Positions 522 to 18,910 of a stretch of 19,845 nt of DNA are shown in pieces. The position numbers and the translations under genes are program-made. The stretch comes from Clostridia bacterium (GTDB taxonomy: Bacteria; Bacillota_A; Clostridia; Christensenellales; Aristaeellaceae): positions 1 to 19,845 of the forward strand of contig JAFXMP010000125.1 of the NCBI GenBank assembly GCA_017530275.1, given 5' to 3'. How positions within the stretch are numbered: position 1 is the first letter of the stretch; each line of letters begins with the position of its first letter. The notes under the pieces are model-generated. The model was not told the DNA's origin. It did no database searches and was given only the letters and a program-made list of their open reading frames with translations.

Positions 522-866
522 ATGAGTATCGGAAGCAGGATCGCGGAAGCCCGCAAAAATAAAAATCTAACTCAGGTTGAGCTTGCTAAATTGCTTGGAG
601 TAAGTAAAGGAGCTATCGCTAATTACGAAAACGAGTTTTGCACGCCGAAAGCAGAAATGATGTACAGGTTGTTTGACGTTTTACAGGTTGATGCAAACTT
701 CTTATATCAGGATGATATGGCGATAAAGGAAGAAAGCATCACCCTTTCGCCGGAAGAAAAGCGCCTGGTTTCCGCCTACCGTTCCGCTGAAAGACGCTAT
801 AAGGAAATCGCTCTTGAAATGTTGGAAGAGCACCCCGAAAAAGATTTGTCAAGGTCGGCGCTGTAG
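522..866 (+). CDS. XRE-family phage repressor (CI-like, no peptidase domain)
   Basis: This 114-residue protein has an N-terminal XRE helix-turn-helix (about residues 4-60; LTQVELAKLLGVSKGAIANY is typical). A connector and a charged helical C-terminus follow (LSPEEKRLVSAYRSAERRYK). The LSPEEKRLV...YR motif is common at the end of small Firmicutes phage and ICE repressors. There is no S24 autoproteolysis domain, so induction would not work by classical LexA-like self-cleavage. The start ATG is well supported by GAGGTGA and a near-consensus promoter. It is divergent from the Cro-like gene and lies in the lysogeny cluster with the integrase, so it is most likely the maintenance repressor. The family is certain; the role as prophage repressor is inferred from context. 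Confidence 0.88.
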   Translation: MSIGSRIAEARKNKNLTQVELAKLLGVSKGAIANYENEFCTPKAEMMYRLFDVLQVDANFLYQDDMAIKEESITLSPEEKRLVSAYRSAERRYKEIALEMLEEHPEKDLSRSAL

Positions 867-1896: not shown

Positions 1897-3468
1897 ATTC
1901 CCAAAACTAAAAAAGCTTCCTGCCGCCCCAAAACGGCAGTTGCTTATGCCCGGTATTCGTCGGCTGGTCAGCGGGATGTGTCCATAGAACAGCAATTGCA
2001 GGATATACGCGCTTTTGCCCAGCGGGAAGGATATACCATTATCCACGAATACGCCGACCACGCCAAATCCGGCTATCATAACACCGCCGCCCGCGCGGAG
2101 TTCCTTTCCATGCTTGCCGCCGCCGATTCCGGTATGTTTGATACTGTTCTTGTGTGGAAGGTGGACAGGTTCGGCAGAAACCGCGAAGAAAGCGCCACCT
2201 ATAAGGGCCAGCTGAGAAAATCCGGCGTTTCCGTTGTGTACGTCATGGAGCCTATCCCCGACGGCGCTGCTGGTGTATTGACTGAGGGAATGCTGGAAGC
2301 TCTCGCGGAATGGTATTCCCGTAACCTGTCCGAAAATGTCACCCGCGGGATGCGGGATAACGCCGCCAAGTGCATTTCCAATGGCTGCCCCATTTTCGGC
2401 TATCGGCGCGGCCCGGATGGACATTACACGATTCACCATGAGGAAGCCGCCGCCGTCCGTTCCATTTTCGCCCGCTATACGCAGGGTTATTCCGCCGCCA
2501 CGATCGCGGGCGAACTAAACGCCGCCGGATTGAAAACCATTCGCGGCTGTTCCTTTTCGCCGCAGACCGTCCTGCGCGTTATATCCAATGAGCGCTATAT
2601 CGGCACCTATATCTGGGCCGACGTGCGCACACCCGGCGGTATCCCCGCCATTATCACCCCGGAAGTATGGGAGGCAGCGCAAGATATGAAAGAAAAAACA
2701 GGCCGACACGTTGAACAGGGCCAAACGGATTTTCTCTTGACCGGAAAGGCTTTCTGCGGCCTTTGCGGTTCCGCCATGATTGGCGATTCCGGCACATCCA
2801 AAACCGGAGCCACCCATTATTATTACACCTGCCAGGTCCACAAATCCCGGAAAGGCTGCAACAAGAAATCCGTTCGCAAAGAATACCTTGAGGACACCGT
2901 GCTCCATTTCCTTGTTTCCCAGTGTCTCACAGGCCCGGAAAGTGAAAAGATTGCCGATGCTATCATCACCGCGCAGAAAGAAGAACAGAAAAAAAGCCCC
3001 CTTGTCGCCCTGGAACGTGAATTGACCGACACAAACAAAAAGATTGACAACATAAACGCCGCCATTGCTTCCGGCGTTTGGAACAGCTCCACCGCCGTCT
3101 ACCTGAAATCCCTTGAAGACGCCGCCGCCGACCTCCGCCAGTCCATCGAAACGGCCCGCTTTATGCAAGCGCAGCTTCTTTCCCGTGACGTGATCCTTTT
3201 TCACCTTGGAAAAATGTCAAAGTATGACCTTTCCGACCCCCGCCGCCGCAAACAGTTGATTGATACGTTTGTAAATGCGGTTTATGTCTATGATGGCTAT
3301 TTGCGCATTGCTATCAATTGCGTTGAAGGAAACGAACGTATACCCCTCTCCGATCTTGAGTCTCTTGATCTTCCGCCCGCCCCGCCGTGTTCGGATAGTA
3401 ACACGGATGGTGCACCATTTGTTACGCATCCGAACTTTCGGATAGTGGTTTACACGATCGCCGTGTAA
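1897..3468 (+). CDS. Large serine recombinase (phage integrase)
   Basis: This protein of about 523 residues catalyses site-specific integration and excision through a serine nucleophile. An N-terminal resolvase domain (about residues 15-155) carries the YARYSS catalytic motif and the WKVDRFGRN arginine motif. A recombinase domain follows (about 165-275), then a zinc ribbon (CGLC, later YTCQ and GCNKK), a coiled-coil stretch (about 370-430) and a short variable C-terminus. The start is unusual. The only in-frame GTG (1888) lies inside AAGGAAGTGATC (1882-1893), an almost perfect match to the anti-Shine-Dalgarno sequence. The likely start is therefore an ATT codon at 1897, or else the GTG at 1888. 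No ATG occurs before the catalytic motif. It converges on the holin gene across a shared terminator. The family call is secure. Confidence 0.93.
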   Translation: MPKTKKASCRPKTAVAYARYSSAGQRDVSIEQQLQDIRAFAQREGYTIIHEYADHAKSGYHNTAARAEFLSMLAAADSGMFDTVLVWKVDRFGRNREESATYKGQLRKSGVSVVYVMEPIPDGAAGVLTEGMLEALAEWYSRNLSENVTRGMRDNAAKCISNGCPIFGYRRGPDGHYTIHHEEAAAVRSIFARYTQGYSAATIAGELNAAGLKTIRGCSFSPQTVLRVISNERYIGTYIWADVRTPGGIPAIITPEVWEAAQDMKEKTGRHVEQGQTDFLLTGKAFCGLCGSAMIGDSGTSKTGATHYYYTCQVHKSRKGCNKKSVRKEYLEDTVLHFLVSQCLTGPESEKIADAIITAQKEEQKKSPLVALERELTDTNKKIDNINAAIASGVWNSSTAVYLKSLEDAAADLRQSIETARFMQAQLLSRDVILFHLGKMSKYDLSDPRRRKQLIDTFVNAVYVYDGYLRIAINCVEGNERIPLSDLESLDLPPAPPCSDSNTDGAPFVTHPNFRIVVYTIAV

Positions 3469-3470
3469 AC

Positions 3471-3506
3471 AAAAAGACCGGAGGAAGAAATTCCCCCGGT
3501 CTTTTG
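3471..3506. terminator. Bidirectional rho-independent terminator
   Basis: AAAAGACCGG (3472-3481) and CCGGTCTTTT (3496-3505) form a 10-bp stem. An inner GGAA/TTCC stem closes a GAAA tetraloop (3483-3494). T-tracts follow on both strands. It sits between the converging recombinase (ends 3468) and holin (ends 3511) genes and so can end both transcripts. Confidence 0.85.
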
Positions 3507-5287: not shown

Positions 5288-5623
5288 TTACTCTTCTTCC
5301 TCTTCCTCGTCGTCATCCTCCAGCATACCGCCGCCCGCCGGGGTGTGCGCGTGATCGCGGAAGTAGTAGTGCGTCGTCAGCGTGCCGTCCACGTTGAAAT
5401 AGACCTGATAACCCTCCAGCACGCAGTCCTCAAACGTGAGAACCGGATTGCTCCCCCGCTTGATGGTCAGCGTAGAAAGGTTCCCTTCCTGCACGATCGC
5501 CAGCGCCGCGTCCATGTCCTCTTTGCTGGGATACGCCGCTATTACGTGCGGTTCCAGGACGGAACAGTCCCGGATTTTGATTTGCGTTCCGTTCGCCATT
5601 GCCAGATACAGCTTCTTTGCCAT
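5288..5623 (-). CDS. Phage protein of unknown function with polyacidic tail
   Basis: The 111-residue product starts at the ATG at 5623, which has GAAGGA about 8 bases upstream. An in-frame ATG at 5689 would overlap the RT gene and lacks a good ribosome site. The body (MAKKLYLAMANGTQIKIRDC onwards) looks beta-rich and soluble, with a YxVYFNVDGTLTTHYYF stretch near residues 76-92. The C-terminus ends in a run of Asp and Glu (LEDDDEEEEEE). Similar small proteins occur after tail fibre genes in Firmicutes phages, but I do not recognise a named family. It follows the RT gene by 40 bases and is coupled to the 55-residue gene. It could be a fibre-associated or chaperone-like protein; this is speculation. 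Confidence 0.65.
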   Translation of the reverse strand: MAKKLYLAMANGTQIKIRDCSVLEPHVIAAYPSKEDMDAALAIVQEGNLSTLTIKRGSNPVLTFEDCVLEGYQVYFNVDGTLTTHYYFRDHAHTPAGGGMLEDDDEEEEEE

Positions 5624-5663
5624 TGCCTTTCCTTCTTTCCCCGGTTTTCCCGGTTGTATTGAT

Positions 5664-6791
5664 TCATGCGGCATTGCCGCTGAATACACATTGCTGATAG
5701 AACCCGTTCATTTTCTGAATCGTGTTCCATGCGTTGCCGTGCATTGCATAGCTCCGCCATGATTGATAGCTTTGATACACGTCTTTCCAGGTGATCTTCC
5801 CGGCCTGCGCCATCTCCGCCAGCTTTTTCAGCTTCCGCCGTTCCCGTGAAACGGATTTCCGGCAGATTTTCATAATGATTTTCCCGGTTTTGGTCAGCGT
5901 AAAGCGCTTTTTCAGGATGGTAAAGCCATGCGCCAGTTTGACTATCCTTGTCTTTCTTTCGTTGAGGCGGATACCAAGCCACCCGGTTAAGGCGCGTAGC
6001 GCGTCCAGGCATTGCCGCAGAAACGCTTTGCTTTCGTGGATGATATAACCATCGTCCATATACCGCCCGTAGCGCTTCGCCCGCATGGTTTCCGTGATTT
6101 TATGGTCGATCGGGTCAGCCATGGCAAGCGCCAGCGTCTGGGAAATTTGGCTTCCCAGGCCCAGCCCGATTTCCCCGAAACAATCTATCAAATGGAAAAG
6201 CAGCGCCAGAATCCTTTTGTCCGTGATTCTCCGCGCTGCTATTGCCTTGATAATATCGTGTCGGATGCTTCCAAAATAGTTTTTGAAATCGAACAGCAGA
6301 ATATAGCCTTTTCTGCCGTGCTTCGCTATGTGATCTCTCAGCTGTTTCCTCAATCGCCGGATTGCAAAATGGTATCCTTTATCCTTCCGCGTTGCGCTGT
6401 TGTCGTAAATGAACGGCTCCGACATCAGCGGCACAAGGCAGTTATCGCATAAGCAGCGCTGCACATTGCGCTCTTTCGCGTTCACCGCCTGAATATGCCG
6501 GGTGTGGCCCCGTTCGTTTATCGTGAAACAATGAAACCCGTCGCTTCTGAATTTTCCCGCCCGCAGCTTGTCCAGTGTTCCGTGGATTTGGAAGGATAGA
6601 ACCGCGGAATATCTCTGCATCCCCGGCTTCCAGGACGTGCCCAGGCGTATCTTTCGATAAGCGCGGAACATGGATTTATATGTGAATACCTTGTCAAGCT
6701 GCCCGTACCAATAGCGCCGCAGCGCCTTTTTGAATGATCTGCGCAGCTCCCGCCTTGCGCGCCGCGCTTTGTGCCGTTCATAGCTGGTCAT
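5664..6791 (-). CDS. DGR reverse transcriptase
   Basis: This 375-residue protein is the error-prone reverse transcriptase of a diversity-generating retroelement. It copies the template-repeat RNA into cDNA with changes at adenines. Visible motifs: catalytic Asp168 in LLFDFKNYF (motif A), GLGLGSQISQ at about 209-218 (motif B, the place of the DGR-typical SQ), and YMDD at 244-247 (motif C, catalytic Asp246/Asp247). The thumb region follows, with a basic stretch at about 310-325. The N-terminus is strongly basic (RHKARRARRELRRSFKKALRR), fitting RNA binding. The start at 6791 is chosen because GGGAG lies about 9 bases upstream; the frame itself is open through the TR to 7226. Neighbours avd, TR and a VR-bearing target confirm a DGR rather than a retron or group II intron. 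Confidence 0.96.
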   Translation of the reverse strand: MTSYERHKARRARRELRRSFKKALRRYWYGQLDKVFTYKSMFRAYRKIRLGTSWKPGMQRYSAVLSFQIHGTLDKLRAGKFRSDGFHCFTINERGHTRHIQAVNAKERNVQRCLCDNCLVPLMSEPFIYDNSATRKDKGYHFAIRRLRKQLRDHIAKHGRKGYILLFDFKNYFGSIRHDIIKAIAARRITDKRILALLFHLIDCFGEIGLGLGSQISQTLALAMADPIDHKITETMRAKRYGRYMDDGYIIHESKAFLRQCLDALRALTGWLGIRLNERKTRIVKLAHGFTILKKRFTLTKTGKIIMKICRKSVSRERRKLKKLAEMAQAGKITWKDVYQSYQSWRSYAMHGNAWNTIQKMNGFYQQCVFSGNAA

Positions 6792-6945
6792 TGCCGATTT
6801 CTCCCTGGAAAAGGAACGCACGGCAGGAATAAACCGCGGGGGATTCCTATTAGCCGCGTAACGGTCGGTGCATGAAACTATCAGACTCCCCAGCCCTAAA
6901 CGCCATGCAAGAAGCGTCCGCACCGCCGTGTCGCCCTTATATTCA

Positions 6946-6973
6946 CACAATAGATTTTGAAAAAATCTTTGTG
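6946..6973 (-). other. Hairpin in the TR-RT spacer
   Basis: CACAA (6946-6950) pairs with TTGTG (6969-6973), and AGATTTT (6952-6958) with AAAATCT (6962-6968). They enclose a 3-base loop, with a single bulged base at 6951. It is a 12-bp AT-rich stem inside otherwise GC-rich DNA, 103 bases downstream of the TR end in the transcript. No U-tract follows on the minus strand, so it is not a normal terminator. A structural role in the DGR RNA is inference. Confidence 0.55.
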
Positions 6974-7075
6974 ACGGTCGCAATCTCCTTCTCTCCCCAT
7001 GCGCTGATTTCCCGCCCCTTGTTGGACGGTACTTTAACGGGCATTTAAGCGCCCCGTTCCCGGAGCGCAGAGAGG

Positions 7076-7204
7076 AGCCGAACCACAGGCCGCGCGAATT
7101 GTTCGCGTTGTTGTTGTTCGCGTTGCCGTTCGTGTTGACCGTGGCGAAGTTGTTCACGTTGTTCGGGTTGACCGAACGGAGGAAAGTATTCTCCGCCGAG
7201 GTCG
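7076..7204 (-). repeat. DGR template repeat (TR), 129 bp
   Basis: On the minus strand this copy carries 35 adenines. Read in the target's frame it encodes 15 asparagine codons, 13 of them AAC, arranged mostly in pairs. It aligns without gaps to 7743-7871 with 106 of 129 identical bases, and every one of the 23 differences is a TR adenine. The 23 bases at the RT-proximal end (7076-7098) contain no adenine and are identical in both copies, as expected for the initiation-of-homing end. Similarity stops sharply at both ends. Confidence 0.97.
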
Positions 7205-7232
7205 GTTTTGCAGATTGCGGCCTACGTTATGG

Positions 7233-7646
7233 TCAAGGAAAGCGAAACCGCTTTTTATCGCTTTCCATAACGCCGTCCACCAAGTTCCTGAGCGTGTAAG
7301 CCATCCGCGTCCATTCTTCCCGGATTTCGTAGGAAATCGGGATTTCGTCTTTCAGCCATTCAAAATCATCCACGTCGGAAGCAAGCGCGGTCAGTTTCGC
7401 GTTTGCCCGCTTAAATGCGTTGGCCCTTTCTTCCGCAAGCGCTTTGTTTGTTGGGAAAATGCTGTTGGCGTACAAAATCAGGTCTTTCGCGTCGTTCGCC
7501 AGCCGCTTCATCGGATCCCACATATCCTGTTTATACTTTTTCGGAAGGTCTGCGCATTTGTCGATCGTGTAAAATTTCAATTGCCGCGCAAGCTCTAAAA
7601 ATTCCGCAGGGGATTTTCCGCGCTTGCTTTTTGGTACGCTGCTCAT
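7233..7646 (-). CDS. avd: DGR accessory variability determinant (Avd-like four-helix protein)
   Basis: The 137-residue protein has a basic start (MSSVPKSKRGKSP) followed by four predicted long helices, the size and layout of the Avd/bAvd family (S23-ribosomal-protein-like four-helix bundle). In BPP-1, Avd forms a pentamer that binds the RT and the template RNA and is needed for mutagenic homing. Charged residues are abundant (KKYKQDMWDPMKR, EERANAFKRANAK), as expected for nucleic-acid binding. The ATG at 7646 is chosen because AGGAGA stands about 9 bases upstream; an in-frame ATG at 7697 lies inside a GC hairpin and lacks a good site. The gene ends 28 bases before the TR. Its position between VR and TR strongly supports the call. 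Confidence 0.92.
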   Translation of the reverse strand: MSSVPKSKRGKSPAEFLELARQLKFYTIDKCADLPKKYKQDMWDPMKRLANDAKDLILYANSIFPTNKALAEERANAFKRANAKLTALASDVDDFEWLKDEIPISYEIREEWTRMAYTLRNLVDGVMESDKKRFRFP

Positions 7647-7686
7647 GCTTTCCGTTCTCCTATTCGCTTGGTTGCCCCCGGAGCTT

Positions 7687-7709
7687 TCCCGCCCCATAAA
7701 GGGGCGGGA
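7687..7709. other. GC-rich hairpin just downstream of the VR
   Basis: TCCCGCCCC (7687-7695) and GGGGCGGGA (7701-7709) form a perfect 9-bp stem with loop ATAAA. It lies 33 bases beyond the VR end and 13 bases beyond the stop codon of the target gene. On the minus (coding) strand no T-tract follows. BPP-1-type DGRs need a short GC-rich hairpin or cruciform next to the VR for target recognition, and this element has the matching stem length and composition. That role is inference. Confidence 0.6.
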
Positions 7710-7722
7710 TTTTTACGGGAGA

Positions 7723-10700
7723 TTATTGATGATGAATACAGAAGCCGAACCACAGGCCGCGCGAAAAGTGCGCGCCGTGGATGCCCGCGTAGCCGAACGC
7801 GCCGACCGCGGCGAAGCCGTACACGTCGCTCGGGTGGACCGAACGGAGGAAAGTACTCTCCGCCGAGGTCGAGCCGGGTTTGTAGCGCTTCCTGCTTTCC
7901 GCGTCTTTCAGCACCTCCGTGTAGGTCGGCCCCATGGTTTCGTAGGATGTGCCGCCGAACACTTCACGGTAGGAGGGACGCCATACTTTGTCCACGGTCA
8001 TTTCGTTGTGAACCACCGTGCCGCTGGTGTCGTAAGTGTCGGAATACTTCTTTACTTCCACGATGCGCGCCGCCAGCGCCGGGTGATACTGCTGAATCAG
8101 CGGCATGATGACATTTGCAAACGTGGTATTCCGGTCAGCGGACTCTTTCCAGCCGCCAATGGCCCCGGTGCCGTTCACGTATACGCCTTCGTTCTGCTGT
8201 GCGCTCTGCGAGTTCATGGAGCGGCTGGTGTTGCAGTTGTATTTCGTGATGAAAGTAACATCCGCCATGTTGCCCGAACCGTCCGCCAGCTCGTCCTTTC
8301 CGCTGCCCATGATTTGCAGCATCACGTCGCCCTCGTTGCCCAGGGGGAAACTGAAATAGTTTCCGGCGCTATAGGTATCCCAGAACGTCCCGTTATCCAG
8401 CGCAGCCAGCAGCTCCGCGTCTGTCGTTGTGATTTCCCGCACGTCCACGGGCGAACCGAACACGGCGTAATATGTGGTGTTCCCGGTGATCGGCCCCAGC
8501 GCGGGACTCCATCCCTTGAAAGGATAGGTTGCCGCGTCGCCCTGCGTGGTGGTAGGTGTTGCCCCGCCATACGTGGGCGTGCTGCCGTAAGGCACGTTCG
8601 TTTGCGTGTACAGCGTGCCACCGCCGTCGTTGGCGCTCCTGGCAAAGTAGGCCGTGTACTTGCGCACCGTTCCGGTGTACGCCGCGTACAGCGTCCTGTC
8701 CGCCGTGACCGCTTTCTGTGCGCTGCCGTTCGCGCTGCCGTTCGCGCTGGTCGCCCATCCCGCGAAGGTGTAATCATACTGAGCCGTGCTGCTCCTGGAC
8801 GGCGTGCCGTTATAGGTCGCGTCGCCGCCATCCAGCACCGTTTCCGTGGTGATCGTGCTCGACCCGTCGAAAGTCTTGTACGTTACCACGCAAGAGATAT
8901 GATCCGCCGTAATGTTGAGATACGGATACCGCGCGTTGTAGCTTGCCACCTGCGCCCCGGTCAGGGTGTCCGTGTGGATGGTGCCGGATACCTGGGCCGT
9001 GTCGGTGTTGTTGCCGTTTTCGTCCAGGCCGCGCATCGTGTCCAGGGTATCCAGCAGCGCCTCGATCTCTTCCGCGTCCTCCGCTTCCCACGTAAAGCCA
9101 ACCAGCCGCACGCGGGTATTTTCATGGCAGGCGTTCAAGAGCGCCTTGGTGTTCACCGTGGGGCAGTTTTCAATGCGCAGGGTAGATAGGCCCGCCGTTG
9201 GCGCTATCAAATCGGAAATGCTCTTTTGATTGAGCAAAATCAGGCTGGTAATGGTACTCGGTAAATGCAGGGTTTCCAGCGCGCCGCCGTTCGGCATGGT
9301 TGCGCCCGTGATCTTCGTGCCGTCAAAGTACGCCGCCGTCAATCCTTCGCACCCGGACAAGTCCACCGTCTTTTGGTCGCCCGTTCCAAGCGCTTTGCAG
9401 TTGCGCACGTCCAGAACGCCCAGCTTCTTGTTGCTGCCAAGTGTCAGGTTGTCAAGCCGCTGGTTTTCGTACTGTTCCGAAGAATCACCCAGCTTCAAGG
9501 TTCCTTGCAGGTTGATGGCCTGGGAAAAGTCCGCGAAGCCCACCTGCATTGCGGAAAGGTCGCCGATGCTCTTGATCTGCTGGGCGGAATAGATGTAGAT
9601 TTCCGTATCGTTGACCGTTTCCAGGGGATTGATAAGCGTAGACGCCTGATCGTGCGCGCCGCGCGTCTGCACCACGTAAGAGCCATATTTCACCGTGGGA
9701 TAAATGTCCGCGTAAGGCGTCACCGTGATGTTTGCTTTCGCGTATCCGCGCAGCTGAATCACCTGGGAAAGCGCGTCGCCGCTGTTCCATTTGCTGTCCA
9801 TGTACTGGAAGCGGTTAAACAGCCACCACTTCCGCTGCTCTTCTTTGCTGCCCTGCATCATCGGCAGGTAAACCGCCGTCGGCTCTTTTCCGGTGTCGGG
9901 CGCAATCAGCGGGTCAATGTACTTGAACCAGGAGTCCTCAATCCATACCGCTTCGGGCCATTTCGCCTGGTGTTCCTCGAACCGCCGCTCCACTTCGTTG
10001 GCGGACAATCCGGCGGAACGCATCCGCTTGTACATGGCTACAATCTCGGTGTGGTAAGCGTCGCGGATGTTGTTCCACAGCACGCTGCCCTGCCCGTTGA
10101 ATACGCTTGCCCCGCCCGTCAGGGTGTCTATATCCTCCAGCGAATACCCGAACACAAGCGAGCCTTCGTTATTTGTCCCCAGTCCCGTGTCCATGTCGTA
10201 AGGCTCCGCCACGGCTTTCCGGGTCGCTATCCGGTTCTCTGCCGTCACGTCGGAACCCGTGAAGCCGATAAACAGGTTTTTTGCCCTGCTGTCTACCATG
10301 AGGAAAAGCTCGGTAAACACGTAGTAATAAACGAAGGTGTCCAGCTCCGCATATGTCGGAAACTCCGCCTTGAACTTCGCCAGCCTGTATGCCGCCGTGT
10401 CCGCCGTGTACTCCGTGCCGCCGTATGTGACCGCCGTTTCCAGCGCGTCCCCGGTCGCCGCCGTGCGGTCTGTGGACGCAACGAACGCCACAAGCTCCTG
10501 AATCATGGTATAGTCCAGCAGCTCGTCCGACGGAAAACGCGCCTCGAAGTCCTGCCGCCATGTGGGGCGCACTTCGCCGCTTTCCGGGTCGGTGTAAGGG
10601 GTTTCGTCGAAAACCCCGGTCTTGAACAGCATCAGGTCAGCCGTGTTGTTTTCAAACTCCCAGCTCTGCATGTCGCCGCTGTACCCATAAGGCCCCGGCG

Positions 10701-13368
10701 CTCTTTTGGGGAGATTGAAATTATATTTTCCCCAGAACTGCGTATCTCCGCCCCCGGTATCCTCCCAGAATACCACGACAGGCAAGCCGTCTATGCCCTG
10801 CCTCACCTTGCTGTTTGCCACCTGTTCCCGCGTCTTGAATGGCGAATAATCGCAGTAGAGCCGCACCAGCTCCACGTTGTTCGCGCCCTCAGAGCTTGCC
10901 ACGTCCGCTTTCAGCACGAAGCGGTTAAACGGCACCACGGTATCTTTCAGGGCGTAGTTGTCCGCGTGTCCGCCGGAAAGCTCGAACCCGTTCTTAAATT
11001 GCAGGTCGTAGTTTTTGCGGGCGTAGGGCGCGGAGGATGTTCCCTGCACGTTGGCCTGGCACCCGGTCGCCGTGAAGCTCTTTTCGGGGTTTACCGGGTC
11101 GGTGTACGCCACCTCGATGGTCTTCTTGTCGCCCTTGTACTGCGGAAGCTGTACCGCTTTCAGAACCATATAGGGCAGGTTTTGCGGCAGTTTGGCTATC
11201 ACGATATTCCCGTATTGGTCATAGAGGTTATTCCGGTTATACCGTTGCAGCATTTCATAGCCCGTCGGCGCGTCCGCTATGAAGTTGTCAAGCACCTGCT
11301 GCCTGTTCAGGTTCCTGTCGTAGACCCTGATCCGGTAAATATCCACGGTGCAATAATCGCTTCCGATGGAGATACCAACCGGGGTCGCCTGTGAAAAGTC
11401 GTCGTTTTCGTTGTACTGCACAACTCCACTCGGTTTCCCGTTGATGTAAACCATGAGCAGCCTGTGCTCGGTCTTCTTTTCGCAGACGAACGAAAGGCGC
11501 ACTTTGCTTTCTTCCCGGTACTGCATCCCGATTTCGGAAAGCTCCGATTTCAGCTCCGCCTTTTGCGCCGTGATCGTCAGGCCGCGCCCCCCGCTTGTGC
11601 ACGAAATGACCGCCGCATTATAGTCCAGCACGTTCCTGGTCGCAAACTCCACCTCAATGGTTTTTCCGCCCGTGCGGAAGTCCTCTCCGAAAAGCTGGAA
11701 CGGGATTGCCACCCGCGCCGCGCCCGCTACCCGCAGCACGTCCACGCCGTCGCCGTCACGCTGCCAGCCGTCGGTGTTCCAATTGAACCCCGTAAGCGTC
11801 GCCGAAACGTTCCCACTTGTCCATGTGGCTGGATTCGCTTCAGCGTTGCTCCGCCCGATGGCGTTCAAATGCAGCTCCAGGCCCTCTGTTTCCGCTGCCG
11901 CGTCGATGTTCAAGGCCGTTACCGTGAATGAAAGCGTTTTTTCCACCGCGCCCACCTTAAATTTTACGGTCGCCGCGCCCGCCGTGTCGCCCCGGTAGGT
12001 GTATTGATGTTCGCTCCGGTCTACCGTCACGGTGGATTTGAGCGTGCTGCCCTCGTAAATCTGCACCGCCGTTTCCAGCCCTGCCGGGTCGTATGCCTGG
12101 AAGGTGATCGGGATAGTGTCGTACTGCTGTACGCTGCTTTCGTGGAACTGCGAAATAATAATGGGCGTGCTGGTTCCGGAAACGACGCTGTAAAACTCAT
12201 AATACAGCCTGTTGCTTTCCACGGTTTCGCCGTTGACCGTGGCGGTAAACCATACCTCCAGCGTGTGTCCGCCGTGCGTCTGCGCGGGGATGGCGTAACT
12301 CAGCTCCCTGTTGGAAACGGTGGTCACCACGGTTTGCAGCTCGGTGCCGTCCAGCTTGAAATGTACGGTCTTTTCCGCCCGGCCCACGGGTGTGAAGCGG
12401 AAAGCGAACGCGCCGCTTGTTTCCTTGCTTTCGTCAAAGAATGTGGATGAAATGGAAAACTCCACGCATTCCACGGTGTACACAATGGAGCGTGCGTTCC
12501 CGTACACGTCGGAAATGGTCACGCGGACGGTGTTGTCGTCCGTCGTCAGGTGTGGCGCAAGGTCTACCGTCACGTTTCCCTGGTTTACGCTCAGCGTGGC
12601 TTTGATTGCGCCGTTTACGGTGATTCTCAATGTGCCTTTTCCGGTCGGCACTTCGTCCAGCAAGCTGCTCCAGTTCACAGTAACGGGCAGGGAAGCGCCC
12701 CGGTTTACCGTTGCCGCCGTCCACTGCATCCCGTTTGTCATGGTCATAACCGCGTTGTTATCTCCACCGCCGCTTCCTCCGCCGCCCATTCCGGCGAACG
12801 GCCCGGCGACCACAACGCCGTTGCTTGTGAGGTACAGGCTCCCATTTTCCACGAACCCGCCGTCGATCTTGCCGTCCAGCGCCGCGCCTATGGCGTTTAA
12901 CCGGGTGTGATCTGCTTCCACGGTTTCCTCGGTCGCCCCGATCTCGTTCTGTAAAGAGCTATGCAGCTTCCCGAACGTGACCGCCCCGTCCTGCACGGTG
13001 GTGGTTGCTTCCGGGTGTGCTGTCAGCCATGCAGAGATAGCGTCCGCCGTCTGTTCATCGGTCGGCAATCCCTGGTCTACCCATTCCGTGGTGCCGTCGC
13101 CGTGTGTGCGAAGCAGCTGCCCGTCCACGCCGTCCGGCGTTGTGGCAGGTTTTGCCACCTTGCCCGCGTCCGATGCTTGCAGCGCCGTGATGTTCGTTTC
13201 CGCCGCGCCCATGCGGGTGCCCACGGCCTTTGCGTCCGCCGCCATGCCGTGAACGGTCAGGGTTTCATCCAGCGGCGCTTGCGCCGTGTCGCCCGCTTCT
13301 ACCGTCACATTGATTTCCGGCGTATCCTCCGGCATATCCAACGGCAGGTTGATTTCACCGTTTGCCAT
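7723..13368 (-). CDS. Giant tail-fibre/adhesin protein, DGR target with C-type-lectin-like tip
   Basis: This 1881-residue protein most likely is the diversified host-binding fibre. From N to C: a low-complexity attachment region (1-190); a Gly-rich linker (about 195-205); beta-rich Ig-like domains (about 206-485); and a concanavalin/LamG-like domain (about 490-700). A CotH-kinase-like region follows (about 730-1090; NVQGTSSAPYARKNY, SRAKNLF, PYDMDTGLG). Next come a leucine-rich-like stretch (about 1300-1420) and two InlB-type beta repeats (about 1494-1640; TFAGWA, PFKGWSP). The C-terminal domain (about 1643-1881) is formylglycine-enzyme/C-type-lectin-like or DUF6273-like, with WRPSYREVFGG and the final SRGLWFGF; it contains the VR. 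The ATG at 13368 has AGGAGG upstream. It follows the tail genes and precedes avd. The fibre and DGR-target role is strong; the inner domain names are by motif only. Confidence 0.9.
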   Translation of the reverse strand: MANGEINLPLDMPEDTPEINVTVEAGDTAQAPLDETLTVHGMAADAKAVGTRMGAAETNITALQASDAGKVAKPATTPDGVDGQLLRTHGDGTTEWVDQGLPTDEQTADAISAWLTAHPEATTTVQDGAVTFGKLHSSLQNEIGATEETVEADHTRLNAIGAALDGKIDGGFVENGSLYLTSNGVVVAGPFAGMGGGGSGGGDNNAVMTMTNGMQWTAATVNRGASLPVTVNWSSLLDEVPTGKGTLRITVNGAIKATLSVNQGNVTVDLAPHLTTDDNTVRVTISDVYGNARSIVYTVECVEFSISSTFFDESKETSGAFAFRFTPVGRAEKTVHFKLDGTELQTVVTTVSNRELSYAIPAQTHGGHTLEVWFTATVNGETVESNRLYYEFYSVVSGTSTPIIISQFHESSVQQYDTIPITFQAYDPAGLETAVQIYEGSTLKSTVTVDRSEHQYTYRGDTAGAATVKFKVGAVEKTLSFTVTALNIDAAAETEGLELHLNAIGRSNAEANPATWTSGNVSATLTGFNWNTDGWQRDGDGVDVLRVAGAARVAIPFQLFGEDFRTGGKTIEVEFATRNVLDYNAAVISCTSGGRGLTITAQKAELKSELSEIGMQYREESKVRLSFVCEKKTEHRLLMVYINGKPSGVVQYNENDDFSQATPVGISIGSDYCTVDIYRIRVYDRNLNRQQVLDNFIADAPTGYEMLQRYNRNNLYDQYGNIVIAKLPQNLPYMVLKAVQLPQYKGDKKTIEVAYTDPVNPEKSFTATGCQANVQGTSSAPYARKNYDLQFKNGFELSGGHADNYALKDTVVPFNRFVLKADVASSEGANNVELVRLYCDYSPFKTREQVANSKVRQGIDGLPVVVFWEDTGGGDTQFWGKYNFNLPKRAPGPYGYSGDMQSWEFENNTADLMLFKTGVFDETPYTDPESGEVRPTWRQDFEARFPSDELLDYTMIQELVAFVASTDRTAATGDALETAVTYGGTEYTADTAAYRLAKFKAEFPTYAELDTFVYYYVFTELFLMVDSRAKNLFIGFTGSDVTAENRIATRKAVAEPYDMDTGLGTNNEGSLVFGYSLEDIDTLTGGASVFNGQGSVLWNNIRDAYHTEIVAMYKRMRSAGLSANEVERRFEEHQAKWPEAVWIEDSWFKYIDPLIAPDTGKEPTAVYLPMMQGSKEEQRKWWLFNRFQYMDSKWNSGDALSQVIQLRGYAKANITVTPYADIYPTVKYGSYVVQTRGAHDQASTLINPLETVNDTEIYIYSAQQIKSIGDLSAMQVGFADFSQAINLQGTLKLGDSSEQYENQRLDNLTLGSNKKLGVLDVRNCKALGTGDQKTVDLSGCEGLTAAYFDGTKITGATMPNGGALETLHLPSTITSLILLNQKSISDLIAPTAGLSTLRIENCPTVNTKALLNACHENTRVRLVGFTWEAEDAEEIEALLDTLDTMRGLDENGNNTDTAQVSGTIHTDTLTGAQVASYNARYPYLNITADHISCVVTYKTFDGSSTITTETVLDGGDATYNGTPSRSSTAQYDYTFAGWATSANGSANGSAQKAVTADRTLYAAYTGTVRKYTAYFARSANDGGGTLYTQTNVPYGSTPTYGGATPTTTQGDAATYPFKGWSPALGPITGNTTYYAVFGSPVDVREITTTDAELLAALDNGTFWDTYSAGNYFSFPLGNEGDVMLQIMGSGKDELADGSGNMADVTFITKYNCNTSRSMNSQSAQQNEGVYVNGTGAIGGWKESADRNTTFANVIMPLIQQYHPALAARIVEVKKYSDTYDTSGTVVHNEMTVDKVWRPSYREVFGGTSYETMGPTYTEVLKDAESRKRYKPGSTSAESTFLRSVHPSDVYGFAAVGAFGYAGIHGAHFSRGLWFGFCIHHQ
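7743..7871 (-). repeat. DGR variable repeat (VR), 129 bp
   Basis: This is the C-terminal coding end of the target gene, residues about 1833-1876. It is aligned with the TR at constant offset 667. The 23 substitutions are A to G (13), A to T (7) and A to C (3) on the coding strand. They change 17 residues between positions 1838 and 1868 while the framework (FLRSV, SRGLWFG) is kept. The VR ends 18 bases before the stop codon. Confidence 0.97.
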
Positions 13369-13388
13369 GTTCTTTTTTCCTCCTGTTC

Positions 13389-13745
13389 TTAAATATCGCC
13401 CACCGCAGGAAGCAGCGTCAGCGTCTTCGGCAAAAATGGCGTGTGTACGTGGTCACCGCTTACAATGGCCCCCTGGTCGTTGTAATACGGATGAATCACG
13501 AAACGCACGTCCCAGGAATAGCTGCCCGGTGAAAGGTAATCCGTTTCGGCGTTGGTGAAATAGATTGTGAACTCTCCGCTTTCGTCAATCTCGCATTGTT
13601 CCTGTTTCACCACCGTTCCGTCGGCGCTTTTCACCGTAAACAGCGCCCGGTCGCCCTCTGCGAACTCATACCCCGTCGCCTTGAACTTCACGGATCCCGT
13701 ATCCCCGCGCGTCATGGCGATTTCCTGATTTTCAACCCGGAACAC
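13389..13745 (-). CDS. Small beta-rich tail/baseplate protein (BppU-like N-terminal type)
   Basis: This protein of about 118 residues has the pattern of the small phage proteins found between the tail-endopeptidase gene and the fibre. It begins with a strand ending in TRGDTGSVKF, followed by Ig-like alternating strands and a PGSYSWDVRF motif. The end is an exposed VHTPFLPKTL stretch. The TRGDT...YxWDI/V signature is common in Firmicutes phage baseplate-upper proteins and their N-terminal domains. The start is ambiguous between two GTG codons. GGGGGTG about 7 bases upstream favours the one at 13745 over 13754. The stop is 20 bases before the fibre start. It may connect the fibre to the tail tip. 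The family similarity is by pattern, the role by location. Confidence 0.65.
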   Translation of the reverse strand: MFRVENQEIAMTRGDTGSVKFKATGYEFAEGDRALFTVKSADGTVVKQEQCEIDESGEFTIYFTNAETDYLSPGSYSWDVRFVIHPYYNDQGAIVSGDHVHTPFLPKTLTLLPAVGDI

Positions 13746-13760
13746 TTTCCGCACCCCCTG

Positions 13761-14021
13761 TTATTCCGTCTTTTTGAGTATGACCCTGTGTTTCTGCCCT
13801 TCTATCCAGGCCACGCTTACCAGCCGGGTGTACCCGGCGTGCACCGCCGTTATCTCTTCCTGGATGTGATCTGTGATCGTCCGCGTGTTTTCCGGCTTTG
13901 AAAATTCCTCCACCGCGCCCGCGAACGTGGACTCCGTCAGGATGATGTGCAAATAGCCGTCAGCGGCCCCGCACATCTCCACCTCATGCACCGCGCCCGA
14001 TGCCGTTTCAATTGTCCGCAT
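13761..14021 (-). CDS. Unknown small tail-region protein (86 aa)
   Basis: The 86-residue product (MRTIETASGAVHEVEMC start) is acidic to neutral and mixed alpha/beta, without membrane segments or recognisable catalytic motifs. The ATG at 14021 is only 3 bases after the stop codon of its upstream neighbour, with GGAGGG overlapping that gene's end, so coupled translation is expected. It ends about 15 bases before its downstream neighbour. Gene packing, a proper ribosome site and the shared strand make it a solid gene. Proteins of this length with the pattern strand-helix-strand occur in Firmicutes tail modules, but I cannot assign a family. A minor tail-tip component or assembly factor is possible. 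Confidence 0.65.
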   Translation of the reverse strand: MRTIETASGAVHEVEMCGAADGYLHIILTESTFAGAVEEFSKPENTRTITDHIQEEITAVHAGYTRLVSVAWIEGQKHRVILKKTE

Positions 14022-14413: not shown

Positions 14414-17134
14414 TTAATCGTTGTCGAACAGGTCAGCAACGTAAAGCCGCGCGTATTTTGCGTTATCCGATGAACCGTATAGATACACGTATCCGTTTTC
14501 ATAACCAAGATACCCATACAAGCCGGAGTCCTCGTTGTCTGTGTTGATTCTGAACCGGCTCCCGATGTAGCTTGTGGCCCAGCTAAACGTAAGTGACGGA
14601 ACCCTCGCGCGGATATAGTATCCGTTTCCACCAAGCGTGCCATTGTTGGCGGCGCGTACATACATCCTTTCGCCCGGATACAAGTCCCAGTTTCCCGTCA
14701 ACTCATACATTCCGTTTTCTGTTCCGTCTGCTTCTATCCAGTTGCCGTAAACAGAAAGGCTTACCGTTTGGCTCGGCGCTTGCGGAACGGTTATATTGGT
14801 ATATAGGTCGTATTCTTCGTCGTCAATGCAATACACAGTAACCAGTTTTGTAACCGTGTTCCCGAAATCAGATGTTGATAGGCTGATATTTGACAGTGAA
14901 TGGGGCCTTGCTGCCGACACTCCGTTCTGATAATACGCAGTGTCGGCGATATTAAAAGAATCAGACCCAGCCGTCAACCTCGCTTTCCCGGTGGTCACTG
15001 TAACCGTGCCGCCGCTTACTGATATTGAAATATTGTGGTAATGGTCTAAATCAATGTCGCCCCTTGCGCTGCTTAATACGGTTGCGCTGATAATGCTCCC
15101 GATTTTGATTGTGCGCGGCAGGAAGTTCGTCCCCGCCACATGGAGGACTGTATCCGCTTGCAGCGACGACGCTGTAAGCGCCGTCGCGTGTGTTATTCCC
15201 GCTGTGAGGTTGTCGAACCTTGCTTTTTCCGCGTCCAGCTCTGTCGCCGTCACGTACCCTTGCAGGTTGATCTTGCTTGCTTGTATCAGCACGCTTTGCG
15301 CGGTCTGGTTGATCGTGCTGGATATTTCGCCCTTCCCTACCTTTGAAGTCAGGCTCTCCGCCGTCTGCGTGACCTTGCTGTACAGCGTTTCACCCTGCCC
15401 CAAGCTGTTGATGCCTGTCTTGGTGTAAACCGTTGACAGGCTCTCCGCCGTCTGCGTGACCTTGCTGTACAGCGTTTCACCCTGCCCCAGGCTGTTGATG
15501 CCTGTTTTCTGAAAAACCGTTGTCAGGCTTTCGGCGTTCATCACCTGGTTTCCGTATAGGGTTTCGCCCTGCCCCAGGCTGTTGATGCCTGTCTTGGTGT
15601 AAACCGTTGACAGGCTCTCCGCTGTCTGCGTGACCTTGCCGTACAGCGTTTCACCCTGCCCCAGGCTGTTGATGCCCGTTTTCTGGAAAACCGTTGCCAG
15701 GCTTTCGGCGTTCATCACCTGGTTTCCGTATAGGGTTTCACCCTGCCCCAGGCTGTTGATGCCCGTTTTCTGGAAAACCGTTGTCAGGCTTTCGGCGCTC
15801 ATCACCTGCATACCGTAGAGGGTTTGCCCGGCGTCCAGGCTTCCGATTCCGGTTTTCTCGAATACGGTTGTCAGGCTCCCCTCGGTCATGTCCTGCCGCC
15901 CCTGCATGGTGATGATGCTGCCTTGCGCAAGCACGACCTGCTGGTGGATTCCTTCGCCGTCCACGATGATTTCAGCCACCCGGCTCCAGTTCACCCCGTC
16001 CGGCCCCTGTCCGATGATGGCCTCCGCCACCATCCCCACGTGGCTCTCCGTGTCGATGAACCAGGCGTGGTCTTCCTTGTCCTTCTTTGCCTTGCTTCGC
16101 CCCGCGCTGCCGCTGCTTCCCGCCCCTTCGCTTGCAATCCTGTTCATGATGGACGCCACGTCCTGGAGCGTGTTGCATAGCGTCACGGTCACGTTTTCCG
16201 GCTCTTTCACCGTGTCGCGCCAGTTTAGTTTCGTTATCCGCTCGGTGATCGTGGTGCCGAACTCTGGAAGCGGCACGCGGCAGACGGTTCCCAAAACCAG
16301 ATGGTCAAGCGGCTCCCCGGTTGCTTCGCTCAGTTCAAGCCCGGCGATTGTGATTGTTACCGTCGGTTCGCAATGCTTGTCCAGCCTGTCCTGCGCCCAA
16401 ATCCGCAACATGGCTTCGTTGCTTTCCCCGGAATTGGTCAGCACCTTGTCCTTCCGCCCGTATTGGTTTTCGTTTTTGCTCAGGTAGTCCCCCAATATAT
16501 GCAGGTCATTCTCCCCGATTGGATAAACCCGCGTGTACATTTGGGAGCGGTCTATCGTTTTCCGCATGGTGGAAAGGTTGCGCCCCATCCGCATTTCGCA
16601 CGCCACCGCGCTGCTTTTGCGCCGAATATGCAGCGTAAACGGCAGGGAGGATAAATCATAATCCCACCACGGGTCGTCCAGCGTGCTGGTGATCGTTTGG
16701 AGCGCCGTGAATAGGTCGTCACCGTTGAATTTATACGCCGCGCTTGTGGAATACTCAAAATCTCCCAGCCGCCATATACTCTGGTGCCCCATGACGTACT
16801 GCGCCGCCTGGTATGCCGTGCATTCCGTGCCGCCGCCCATGTCCGCCGCTGTCACTTCGCCGAAAATGGACACGTCACGCAGCGTGTTAATGATGTGCTC
16901 CAGCGTTGCGGCGCGTGTATAGGTGTTGTATGTTGTTTCTATGCTTTTCACGCGCCACACAATGCCCGCGCCCGGTCCGCTGTCCTCCAGCAGCCAGACG
17001 CCCACTGCAAGCTCCGGCGCTTCCGGCCCCAGTGTAACTCGCGCCGTGCTCTGCCGCTCCATCAGCGTCAGGGCGTCGCCCTCCGGCGCGAATTTCTCCC
17101 CCGGTGTCAGGCTTAACCCCTGCAATTTAATCAT
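14414..17134 (-). CDS. Prophage tail protein (endopeptidase/tail-lysin type) with six 29-aa repeats
   Basis: This 906-residue protein follows the distal tail gene directly (stop and start abut, with GGGAGG inside the upstream gene). That is the place of the tail-associated protein Tal. Residues about 1-345 show the Prophage_tail/siphovirus ReqiPepy6 Gp37-like pattern (WRVKSIETTYNTYTRAATLE, MYTRVYPIGE, ITKLNWRD). A Ser/Gly/Lys linker follows. Residues about 422-595 are six tandem 29-residue repeats of the type TKTGINSLGQGETLYG. Then comes a segment ending ASKINLQGYVTATELDAEKA, typical of Firmicutes minor tail proteins, and a beta-rich C-terminus of about 250 residues with a YGYLGYENGYVYLYGS stretch. 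No peptidase catalytic motif is obvious, so enzymatic activity is uncertain. A structural tail-tip role is the safer call. Confidence 0.85.
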   Translation of the reverse strand: MIKLQGLSLTPGEKFAPEGDALTLMERQSTARVTLGPEAPELAVGVWLLEDSGPGAGIVWRVKSIETTYNTYTRAATLEHIINTLRDVSIFGEVTAADMGGGTECTAYQAAQYVMGHQSIWRLGDFEYSTSAAYKFNGDDLFTALQTITSTLDDPWWDYDLSSLPFTLHIRRKSSAVACEMRMGRNLSTMRKTIDRSQMYTRVYPIGENDLHILGDYLSKNENQYGRKDKVLTNSGESNEAMLRIWAQDRLDKHCEPTVTITIAGLELSEATGEPLDHLVLGTVCRVPLPEFGTTITERITKLNWRDTVKEPENVTVTLCNTLQDVASIMNRIASEGAGSSGSAGRSKAKKDKEDHAWFIDTESHVGMVAEAIIGQGPDGVNWSRVAEIIVDGEGIHQQVVLAQGSIITMQGRQDMTEGSLTTVFEKTGIGSLDAGQTLYGMQVMSAESLTTVFQKTGINSLGQGETLYGNQVMNAESLATVFQKTGINSLGQGETLYGKVTQTAESLSTVYTKTGINSLGQGETLYGNQVMNAESLTTVFQKTGINSLGQGETLYSKVTQTAESLSTVYTKTGINSLGQGETLYSKVTQTAESLTSKVGKGEISSTINQTAQSVLIQASKINLQGYVTATELDAEKARFDNLTAGITHATALTASSLQADTVLHVAGTNFLPRTIKIGSIISATVLSSARGDIDLDHYHNISISVSGGTVTVTTGKARLTAGSDSFNIADTAYYQNGVSAARPHSLSNISLSTSDFGNTVTKLVTVYCIDDEEYDLYTNITVPQAPSQTVSLSVYGNWIEADGTENGMYELTGNWDLYPGERMYVRAANNGTLGGNGYYIRARVPSLTFSWATSYIGSRFRINTDNEDSGLYGYLGYENGYVYLYGSSDNAKYARLYVADLFDND
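15350..15871 (-). repeat. Six tandem 87-bp repeats inside the tail protein gene
   Basis: Unit starts fall at 15350, 15437, 15524, 15611, 15698 and 15785, each exactly 87 bases apart, and a degenerate seventh begins at 15872. Each unit encodes 29 residues. Two subtypes occur, one with VTQTAESLSTVYTKTG and one with QVMNAESLTTVFQKTG, in a mosaic order. The unit farthest upstream in the gene is the most diverged. No frame change occurs, so the copy number can vary without breaking the protein. Confidence 0.93.
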
Positions 17135-17920: not shown

Positions 17921-18910
17921 TTAATGAATGTCGTACTTCGTTTCTATCGCTCTCAACCAGTCGCCCAGCGTGATCGTTTCCGCCGTGCACGCGCCGCTTT
18001 TTACCGCCGTGCTCCGCACGTTCTCCATGATGCTGGCAAGCATTCCAGACGGAGCGCCCATGAATACGGCCCGGTTCTTTCCCCACCAGGCCGCGAACTG
18101 CCCCTCGCAGCGCTTCATGTGCTCCGTTGCCTTTCCGCTTGTCAGCTCGTAGTAACAGTCTAATGCCGTGCGCACAACCGCGCCCGTGTGTTCTTTCTCA
18201 ATGCCGCGCCGTTCCAGCTCCTCCGCCGTCGCAAAACGGTGTTCCAGCATTTGCGCATAAAATACGCTCTTGTCCTTTTCCCGGCGCGTCACGCTGTCGC
18301 TGTTGGTGCACCACAGGTATATCGGCTCCCGGATTTCGCCCACCCGTTCAGGCCCGGCGATAATCTGGCAGAGCGTGTTAAAATCCGCGTCTTCGCCGAA
18401 AGACAGAGCCGGGTTGAAGCGCAGCCCGTTGTCGTTCAAAAAGTCCCGCCGGAAGAACCGCCCATGGATGAAGGTCATGTCCCAGGTGTGCTTATAGAGC
18501 AAATACGCCCCGGTTTCTGCGTCTTCGCCCTCTTCCATGAACCTGTTCCATAGATACACTTTCCCGTCCTTGTCGGCCTTCCTGAGCGCTTCCAGGGCCA
18601 CTTTCAACGAAAGGGCGCTGCTGTACATGTCGTCGAAGTCGCAGAACGCCACCCACACCGCGCCGCTCAGGTCTATACCCGCGTTTCGCGCCGCGCTTAC
18701 GCCCCCGTGCGGTATCACCTTTTCCGTGATCTGGAAGGGATACCGCAGGTATTTGATGAACGGGAGCCGCCCCTCTTCGCCGTCCTGTGCCAGTATCACC
18801 CTGATTTCGTCAAAGTCCACTCCTCGCTGCAATGCCAGCATGTCAAAGAGCTTTTTCCCGGTCGCCCATGGTTCCCGGCAATGCGGCACGATAATGTCCA
18901 GATAACTCAT
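17921..18910 (-). CDS. Family 2 glycosyltransferase inside the tail module
   Basis: The 329-residue protein has a GT-A fold of family 2: an N-terminal nucleotide-binding strand (LDIIVPHCREPW), the VSAARNAGIDLSGAVWVAF signature at about 71-89, and a DxD-type metal/nucleotide motif D91-F92-D93-D94. A region about 110-220 contains FFRRDFLNDNGLRF and SFGEDADF, typical acceptor-side elements. It has no membrane segment or signal peptide, so it should act in the cytoplasm using a nucleotide-sugar donor. GGGAGG lies upstream of the ATG at 18910. It starts 22 bases after the tape measure gene and ends 7-13 bases before Dit, so it is part of the late operon. Its substrate is unknown. A virion protein such as the fibre, or a host surface glycan, are the obvious candidates. 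Confidence 0.88.
   Translation of the reverse strand: MSYLDIIVPHCREPWATGKKLFDMLALQRGVDFDEIRVILAQDGEEGRLPFIKYLRYPFQITEKVIPHGGVSAARNAGIDLSGAVWVAFCDFDDMYSSALSLKVALEALRKADKDGKVYLWNRFMEEGEDAETGAYLLYKHTWDMTFIHGRFFRRDFLNDNGLRFNPALSFGEDADFNTLCQIIAGPERVGEIREPIYLWCTNSDSVTRREKDKSVFYAQMLEHRFATAEELERRGIEKEHTGAVVRTALDCYYELTSGKATEHMKRCEGQFAAWWGKNRAVFMGAPSGMLASIMENVRSTAVKSGACTAETITLGDWLRAIETKYDIH

Follow-up and report, generated by a model that had tools for sequence, protein, structure and literature searches.

A diversity-generating retroelement with an RT-2 RNA beside its template repeat, in a predicted phage tail locus of a Clostridia bacterium

The locus described here lies in a 19,845-nucleotide stretch of DNA from a Clostridia bacterium (contig JAFXMP010000125.1; the whole stretch is hereafter the window), and raises the question of whether its template repeat (TR), variable repeat (VR), and reverse transcriptase (RT) form a complete and apparently active diversity-generating retroelement (DGR) in a phage tail module, as a first-pass annotation had claimed. 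The locus is a DGR. Its completeness, however, requires two parts missing from that claim, namely a structured RNA between the TR and the RT, and a hairpin after the VR (Table 1).

Read on the minus strand, the TR (7204 to 7076) and the VR (7871 to 7743) align over 129 bases without gaps and with 23 mismatches, comprising 13 A>G, 7 A>T, and 3 A>C changes from TR to VR. Every mismatch falls on one of the TR's 35 coding-strand adenines, leaving the other 94 positions unchanged, a placement with a chance probability of 5e-17, and the first base outside each end of the repeats is mismatched; the adenine-only divergence and the sharp repeat ends noticed in the annotation are thus borne out. A direct-repeat search independently recovers the pair (7073-7204 and 7740-7871, 82% identical). 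When 107 TR/VR pairs are pooled, mismatches affect 1765 of 3712 A, 10 of 3725 C, 1 of 2948 G, and 11 of 2586 T of the TR, a spectrum that is biased by design because the TR/VR scan rewards adenine mismatches, whereas the window's own counts are free of this bias.

Table 1. Features of the retroelement and its target gene, in positions of the window.
Feature	Position	Strand	Basis
Reverse transcriptase, 375 aa	5664..6791	-	PF00078, 61.4 bits; phrog_1423; profile against solved structures
RT-2 RNA (Rfam RF03077)	6791..7046	-	full-length model match (1-222 of 222), 81.3 bits against a gathering cut-off of 40
AAGG, proposed to hold the priming residue	6987..6990	-	invariant in 44 aligned spacers
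TR-junction helix, 3' strand (GAGAG), proposed primer strand	6991..6995	-	covariation across loci
TR-junction helix, 5' strand (CUCUC)	7070..7074	-	covariation across loci
Template repeat (TR)	7076..7204	-	ungapped alignment to VR
Avd-like gene, 137 aa if started at ATG 7646; open frame reaches 7697	7233..7646	-	phrog_3206, E 8.9e-5; start chosen from sequence
Hairpin 33 nt after the VR; stem of 9 bp, TTTAT loop	7687..7709	-	same arrangement in 80/100 relatives
Variable repeat (VR), codons 1834-1875 of target	7743..7871	-	ungapped alignment to TR
Target gene, predicted tail protein of 1881 aa, VR at C-terminus	7723..13368	-	ORF; phrog_14959 and CotH matches; surrounding tail genes
DUF6273-like domain of target, contains VR	7801..8097	-	PF19789, 21.2 bits, below cut-off 23.5; 24.9 in relative P0121
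CotH-like stretch, target residues 997-1138	9955..10380	-	PF08757, 29.3 bits, cut-off 23.8

The gene adjoining the TR encodes a DGR-type RT, as indicated by its profile and its SQ motif. The motifs LLFDFKNYF, SQISQ, and YMDD, already pointed out in the annotation, are all present in its frame; the description of the gene needs one correction, as the gene proper starts at ATG 6791 and the open frame extends back into the TR, to 7157. The SQ pair (S217 and Q218), which marks DGR RTs, is invariant across the 29 rows of the RT alignment. A profile comparison had been suggested to tell a DGR from a non-DGR clade and, among solved structures, it gives the reverse transcriptase of 8ub7 (328 residues) as the best match at 1.9e-28, with group II intron RTs following at 1.1e-13; 8ub7 is presumably the DGR complex of BPP-1, whose Brt likewise has 328 residues. 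Searching the genome contigs with the single RT sequence gave no match, and searching them with alignment A1 gave 72 loci.

The order of target with VR, accessory gene, TR, spacer, and RT is shared with the DGR of the Bordetella phage BPP-1 (AY029185), in agreement with the classical order that had been proposed. The weakest component is the Avd-like gene, which does match phrog_3206, but whose protein matches by profile neither BPP-1-type Avd (probability 4%) nor the solved structures. The frame as listed starts at ATG 7697, which lies within the post-VR hairpin, whereas AGGAG precedes ATG 7646, making the latter the likelier start.

The VR ends 17 bases before the stop codon of the 1881-codon target frame, and the phrog_14959 and CotH matches of this target, together with the tail genes around it, underlie its prediction as a tail protein; a C-lectin fold, sought for the VR domain, was not established. 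In P0121, a near-identical target protein, 7 of 1839 residues differ from the window outside the VR and 17 of 42 inside it. Comparing VR variants across relatives had been recommended as a check, and in P0121, P0122, and P0123 every VR difference falls on a TR-adenine codon (17 of 17, 15 of 15, and 14 of 14, respectively), all 42 VR codons of each being reachable from the window's TR through adenine changes only. In the more distant P0124, 18 VR differences affect adenine codons and a further 9 affect other codons, as would be expected if it had its own, putative TR.

The spacer between TR and RT is matched over the full length of the RT-2 RNA model, the only Rfam family found in 5600-7950 with E values up to 0.5. 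When the records of 100 of the 154 loci with related RTs were searched, RT-2 RNA was found in 94, in 92 of them above the cut-off. A search with the RNA core alone, some of whose contigs were already known through their RT, places a DGR-type RT next to 106 of 107 loci among the matches listed. Compensatory changes are present in 27 of 33 spacer base pairs; the folding energy of the window's own spacer is no better than that of shuffled sequences (z -1.0).

The Rfam model begins within the spacer, leaves the AAGG region unpaired, and does not include a further helix that covaries across loci and joins the 3' end of the TR to a strand ending at AAGG. In 134 loci, this helix reaches 5.28 bp against 3.45 when permuted, with none of 500 permutations as high; these loci are what remained of 204 after dropping 18 without the loop and AAGG motif and then the redundant ones. 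Windows placed 14 nt to either side of the TR junction give no comparable signal, and the minimum-energy fold of the window's spacer does not contain the helix. Among BPP-1-type loci the same helix is marginal (4.40 against 4.12, 1/300, or 14/300 when G-U pairs are counted). Both adenines of AAGG are paired in 35 of 50 helices of at least 6 bp, and the priming residue would likely be one of them. DGR cDNA priming was worked out on BPP-1, in which synthesis starts from spacer residue A56. The geometry of the junction helix suits a primer lying on its template, and we infer that RT-2 RNA primes cDNA synthesis. PMC12875486 describes, for BPP-1, a spacer adenine from which cDNA synthesis begins at the 3' junction of the TR.

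The other added part, the hairpin past the VR, was counted in 100 nonredundant loci of 115 eligible, where, with a stem of at least 7 bp, it follows 80 VRs (2.1 expected) and 3 TRs. Among 87 family hairpins with a stem of at least 6 bp, 64 share one loop pattern; the usual loop is a YnnRT of 5-6 nt. The published loop consensus, as given in PMC3240598, is the 4-nt GRNA; the loop TTTAT of the window is not such a tetraloop of BPP-1-type phage DGRs. Loop classes cluster in the RT tree, with 13 changes where shuffled classes need 21.3 (0/500); near-copies contribute to the figure. A strict pairing of loop class with RNA class was considered and rejected, given the GRNA loops of the RT-2-positive loci L132, L140, and L400, and the other G..A tetraloops of L116 and L409. 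Neither a paper linking RT-2 RNA to DGRs nor a description of the YnnRT loop was found in the open-licence literature searched, which does not amount to absence from print.

Each of these readings has a competitor. The hairpin might terminate transcription instead of serving the DGR as a target element, given that in the window it is terminator-like on the plus strand, opposite to the genes, and that an A-rich run precedes 18 of the 87 family hairpins, as for an antisense terminator. Even so, a sense-strand T-run occurs in just 3 of the 87, and the preference for VRs over TRs, the common loop, and the BPP-1 hairpin at that very place, needed for efficient retrohoming according to PMC3240598, render a terminator quite improbable. 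The cassette could also be a relic, its VR written once from the window's TR and no longer changing, a reading helped by the single DNA copy of the VR, that in the window. Such a relic is hard to reconcile with the differences of P0121, which are few outside the VR and confined to adenine codons inside it, or with an RT, a TR, and a spacer RNA that are intact in sequence, and we regard it as highly improbable. The P0121 alleles instead lend indirect support to the apparent activity claimed for the element, activity itself being deduced from sequence: the cassette probably continues to rewrite a phage tail protein predicted to bind the host, because TR and VR differ only at TR adenines and relatives carry different target tips.

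Regarding the RT-2 RNA, an alternative is that it stands apart from the DGR template RNA, as an independent small RNA or as a leader controlling RT translation. Its 3' end coincides with the RT start codon (6791), and the Rfam copy used types it only as 'Gene; sRNA', under a name and a description without mention of DGRs. Nonetheless, its 5' side keeps a near-constant distance from the TR, with the core 102-129 nt past the TR end in 68 of 78 loci (RNA-core search, among the matches listed), the covarying helix spans the TR/spacer junction, and the spacer of BPP-1, located equivalently, is a match to the Rfam 'Phage_DGR' RNA, all of which makes a separate RNA or leader unlikely and favours an RNA that is part of the DGR template.

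On the whole, we consider it very probable that this is a DGR with adenine-only TR/VR divergence and that its RT, for which a folded RNA adjoining the template is the probable primer, is likely still rewriting codons 1834-1875 of a predicted tail protein. In the proposed mechanism, the transcript carrying the TR and RT-2 RNA would fold so that the strand before AAGG pairs with the 3' end of the TR as a primer does with its template, and an AAGG residue, likely an adenine, would start the cDNA. The RT and the Avd-like protein would then copy the TR, misreading adenines, and the cDNA would replace the VR with the help of the hairpin, so that the altered residues may change what the tail binds. 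We give roughly even chances to a broader proposal: that in a large DGR lineage RT-2 RNA serves as the scaffold for self-priming, with a primer-template helix clamping the AAGG-ending strand to the 3' end of the TR and an AAGG adenine starting the cDNA; that several of the orphan 'RT-n' families in Rfam (RT-2, RT-3, RT-9, RT-14, and RT-18) represent the DGR template RNAs of distinct lineages; and that the target in the RT-2 lineage is mostly marked by a YnnRT instead of a GRNA loop. Many phage and prophage DGRs have a different RNA family in the place of the BPP-1 spacer, with a covarying helix at the template end that leads to a testable priming prediction. If the proposal is true, Rfam families whose names refer only to a reverse transcriptase close by would gain a function, and the target-marking DNA hairpin would gain a sequence rule.

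Set beside known systems, the window DGR belongs to an established kind and is an ordinary example of it, its RT-2 RNA and hairpin marking a lineage variant. The BPP-1 DGR likewise has adenine-only TR/VR divergence, a hairpin past the VR, and a structured spacer RNA. However, this RNA is RF03022 (104.7 bits) in BPP-1, a family to which the RT-2 spacer of the window is not assigned, the hairpin loop is GAAA against TTTAT, and the target Mtd has 381 codons by coordinates against 1881 aa. RT-2 RNA also lies between TR and RT in the Roseburia phage Shimadzu (144.9 bits; loop CTCGT; RT about 44% identical to that of the window) and the Faecalibacterium phage Pioen, which is locus L400 (175.1 bits; loop GGAA; RT about 34% identical), both with adenine TR/VR mismatches and at most one other. 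The Bacteroides phage BT-TP2, which we take to belong to the hankyphage group, has a large tail protein that is a distant relative (28.1% over residues 261-1507) and an adenine-only TR/VR pair, but differs in its spacer RNA, RT-3 (RF03068), and in having just a 6 bp stem with loop AAA after the VR.

A circularly permuted RNA common to BPP-1 and the window was also considered, prompted by CTTCTTGCATGGC, shared by both spacers; this sharing was taken as chance because TTGCATG is found upstream of the RT in just 1 of the 63 BPP-1-type loci listed, namely BPP-1's own record (L324). Lastly, some genomes carry second RT-2 matches on other contigs. On the same record, five loci (L053, L069, L099, L103, and L110) have a second RT-2 match about 3 kb from the first, with a second RT there, and are therefore tandem cassettes; L112, also scanned for a second RT, ends within its RT.

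The locus is a well-supported diversity-generating retroelement (DGR) and, as a DGR, an ordinary one. On the minus strand, the target gene, which carries the variable repeat (VR), is followed by a hairpin, an Avd-like ORF, the template repeat (TR), a spacer and the reverse transcriptase (RT) gene. The adenine-only difference between both repeats, reported in the first-pass annotation, was recovered in full: over 129 bases aligned without gaps, all 23 mismatches fall on TR adenines, of which 35 are available, and the homology stops sharply, with a mismatch at the first base outside both ends. The neighbours are of phage type, namely a protein with a peptidoglycan-binding domain, a Prophage_tail protein and a serine recombinase, plus a weak Dit match. 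The Prophage_tail protein gene (14414-17134) contains an 87-nt (29-codon) repeat array at 15288-15896, and a glycosyltransferase-like ORF lies amid the tail genes at 17921-18910, with an NF007482 match well under the cut-off.

Features of the DGR in the window and Rfam RT-n RNAs in public phage DGR regions
Feature	Record	Position	Strand	Remark
Target gene	window	13368-7723	-	VR near its end
VR	window	7871-7743	-	alignment with TR
Hairpin after VR	window	7709-7687	-
Avd-like ORF	window	likely 7646-7233	-
TR	window	7204-7076	-	alignment with VR
Spacer	window	between TR and RT	-
RT	window	6791-5664	-
RT-3	L402 (BT-TP2)	3319-3468		just upstream of DGR-type RT
RT-9	L406 (Mushu)	3198-3297		just upstream of DGR-type RT
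RT-14	L392 (BalMu-1)	3331-3474		just upstream of DGR-type RT
RT-18	L405 (LBR48)	702-777		just upstream of DGR-type RT

In Pfam the RT matches RVT_1, and among the PHROGs it matches phrog_1423. NCBIfam returned only matches below its curated cut-offs, the top one being a group II intron RT. Against solved structures, a profile of 29 rows ranked the 328-residue RT of 8ub7 first (1.9e-28), ahead of group II intron RTs (1.1e-13), which bears out its earlier assignment as DGR-type. The accessory ORF has a weak match to phrog_3206, 'Avd protein of DGR' (E 8.9e-5); a profile built from this ORF and 93 same-position ORFs of relatives found no match to the Avd of the Bordetella phage BPP-1 type.

The target protein contains a CotH domain (residues 997-1138) and a DUF6273-like end. 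According to the parts of the sources consulted, CotH among DGR targets (PMC4159848) and DUF6273 around phage VRs (PMC11792537, PMC10743442) are already published. For the target here, a role in host binding is predicted on the basis of its position and its relatives. Of 115 loci with a clean TR/VR pair, 110 have the VR inside an open frame 150 codons long or more. A search with target residues 900-1881 scored 7990 candidates and yielded 1679 homologues, the best four of which (P0121-P0124) were compared with the target at the protein level. For P0121, 7 of 1839 residues differ beyond the VR and 17 of 42 within it; all 17 belong to the 20 codons whose TR counterpart has an adenine at position 1 or 2. 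The VR differences of P0122 (15/15) and P0123 (14/14) likewise fall at TR-adenine codons, with 293 and 322 of 1838 residues differing outside the VR, and in these three proteins adenine changes alone derive 42/42 VR codons from the window TR. Variation confined to TR-adenine codons, as an element active in nature would give, is what these three proteins display; in the VR of P0124, 18 differences fall at adenine codons and 9 at other codons.

What marks this DGR as a lineage variant is its RNA and its hairpin. The spacer is a full-length match (7046-6791, minus strand, 81.3 bits) to the Rfam family RT-2 (RF03077), whereas that of BPP-1 belongs to RF03022, 'Phage_DGR'. Related RTs were collected at 154 loci (82 virus, 72 genome), 126 of them with a TR/VR pair in an adenine-aware scan. 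In the records of 100 of the 154 loci, RF03077 matched 49 of 50 virus records (49 above cut-off) and 45 of 50 genomes (43 above cut-off), with no match in 14 control genomes. Two orders, sampled at 295 genomes each with the starting genome counted, gave 3 and 10 matches (3 and 7 above cut-off). A scan with the RNA core only returned at least 120 stretches, and 118 loci were used. Among the matches listed, a DGR-type RT was present at 106 of the 107 loci that extend 500 nt or more downstream, and a TR/VR pair at 71 of the 75 that extend 1500 nt or more upstream; of 78 cores, 68 started 102-129 nt past the end of the TR. The core locus lacking an RT (L242) is no RT-2 match; L256, L271 and L282, where no TR/VR was detected, are.

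In the RF03077 model, which begins downstream of the TR end, the AAGG region is unpaired. In an alignment of 44 spacers, AAGG is invariant and 27 of 33 predicted pairs change on both sides. The sequence that closes the TR (CCUCUC in the window) is complementary to the one preceding AAGG, and both strands of this junction helix co-vary (e.g., CUGCAC/GUGCAG in L107). Over 134 nonredundant loci, window included, the longest Watson-Crick helix averages 5.28 bp, against 3.45 (sd 0.08) with permuted partners (0/500 as high). Control windows 14 nt upstream (3.21 vs 3.42) and downstream (3.36 vs 3.13, 2/500 as high) show no comparable gain, and reducing the non-GAGAG loci to a single representative of each distinct 3' strand (n=77) still gives 5.16 vs 3.37 (0/500). 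When the search window is 60 nt, helices 6 bp or longer occur at 50 of 96 loci, and 42 of these 50 begin at -8 to +4 of the end of TR/VR homology (permuted mean 6.9, maximum 14 in 100 permutations). The first A of AAGG lies at a median spacer nt of 55 (quartiles 51-62) and, from coordinates, at nt 86 in the window, whose spacer is longer. Speaking against the helix, the window spacer folded on its own does not exceed shuffled sequences in stability (z -1.0), and the helix is absent from its best fold. A similar helix is marginal across 40 BPP-1-type loci (4.40 vs 4.12, 1/300; 14/300 with G-U pairs allowed).

The strand before AAGG would pair with the template's 3' end, its 3' side facing the TR, which is the geometry of a primer. 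Since cDNA synthesis in BPP-1 is primed by an internal adenine of the spacer at the 3' junction of the TR, as stated in the portion of PMC12875486 consulted, AAGG likely holds the priming residue of the window's DGR. Both As are themselves paired in 35 of the 50 helices that reach 6 bp, so any particular residue of AAGG is a candidate at most. No tie of RT-2 RNA to the priming of DGRs turned up in the open-licence literature searched, and the link is testable.

In the 90 nt past the VR, 80 of 100 nonredundant loci carry a perfectly paired stem 7 bp or longer (2.1 expected from shuffles), against 3 of 100 past the TR. Stems of at least 6 bp are found in 87, with loops that are YnnRT in 64 (5-6 nt, such as CTTGT, CTTTGT or TTTAT; fitted by 12% of shuffled 5-6 nt loops), GRNA in 6 and neither in 17. 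BPP-1-type loci, in contrast, carry the hairpin in 37 of 45, with 35 GRNA loops, 2 others and no YnnRT. The part of PMC3240598 consulted gives a GRNA loop of 4 nt as the consensus for phages; BPP-1 activity falls near background with CTTT replacing the loop or with a loop 2 nt longer. Loop class clusters on the RT tree and is not fixed by RNA family. The window hairpin is terminator-like on the opposite strand too.

Other orphan 'RT-n' RNAs may, in general, be DGR template RNAs. Among 20 public-phage DGR regions picked from two hit lists, 19 with a TR/VR pair (the exception being LBR48), RT-2 was found in three and RT-3, RT-9, RT-14 and RT-18 in one each, with no such family matched in 13. RT-2, RT-3 and RT-16 are among the families whose structures gained covarying pairs in Rfam 15, according to the section of PMC11701678 consulted.

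Several relatives show further arrangements. L136, a contig whose title names a Methanobrevibacter MAG and which may be a binning error, carries a DGR of the same RT family. It gave no RT-2 match in the RF03077 search, its hairpin loop is GAAA, and another VR lies ~10.8 kb downstream. L271 has three type II hammerhead ribozyme matches (12609-13998) on the opposite strand, less than 6 kb from its RT-2 RNA. Tandem cassettes occur in L053, L069, L099, L103 and L110, where a second RT lies ~3 kb downstream of the first, each with its own RT-2 match.
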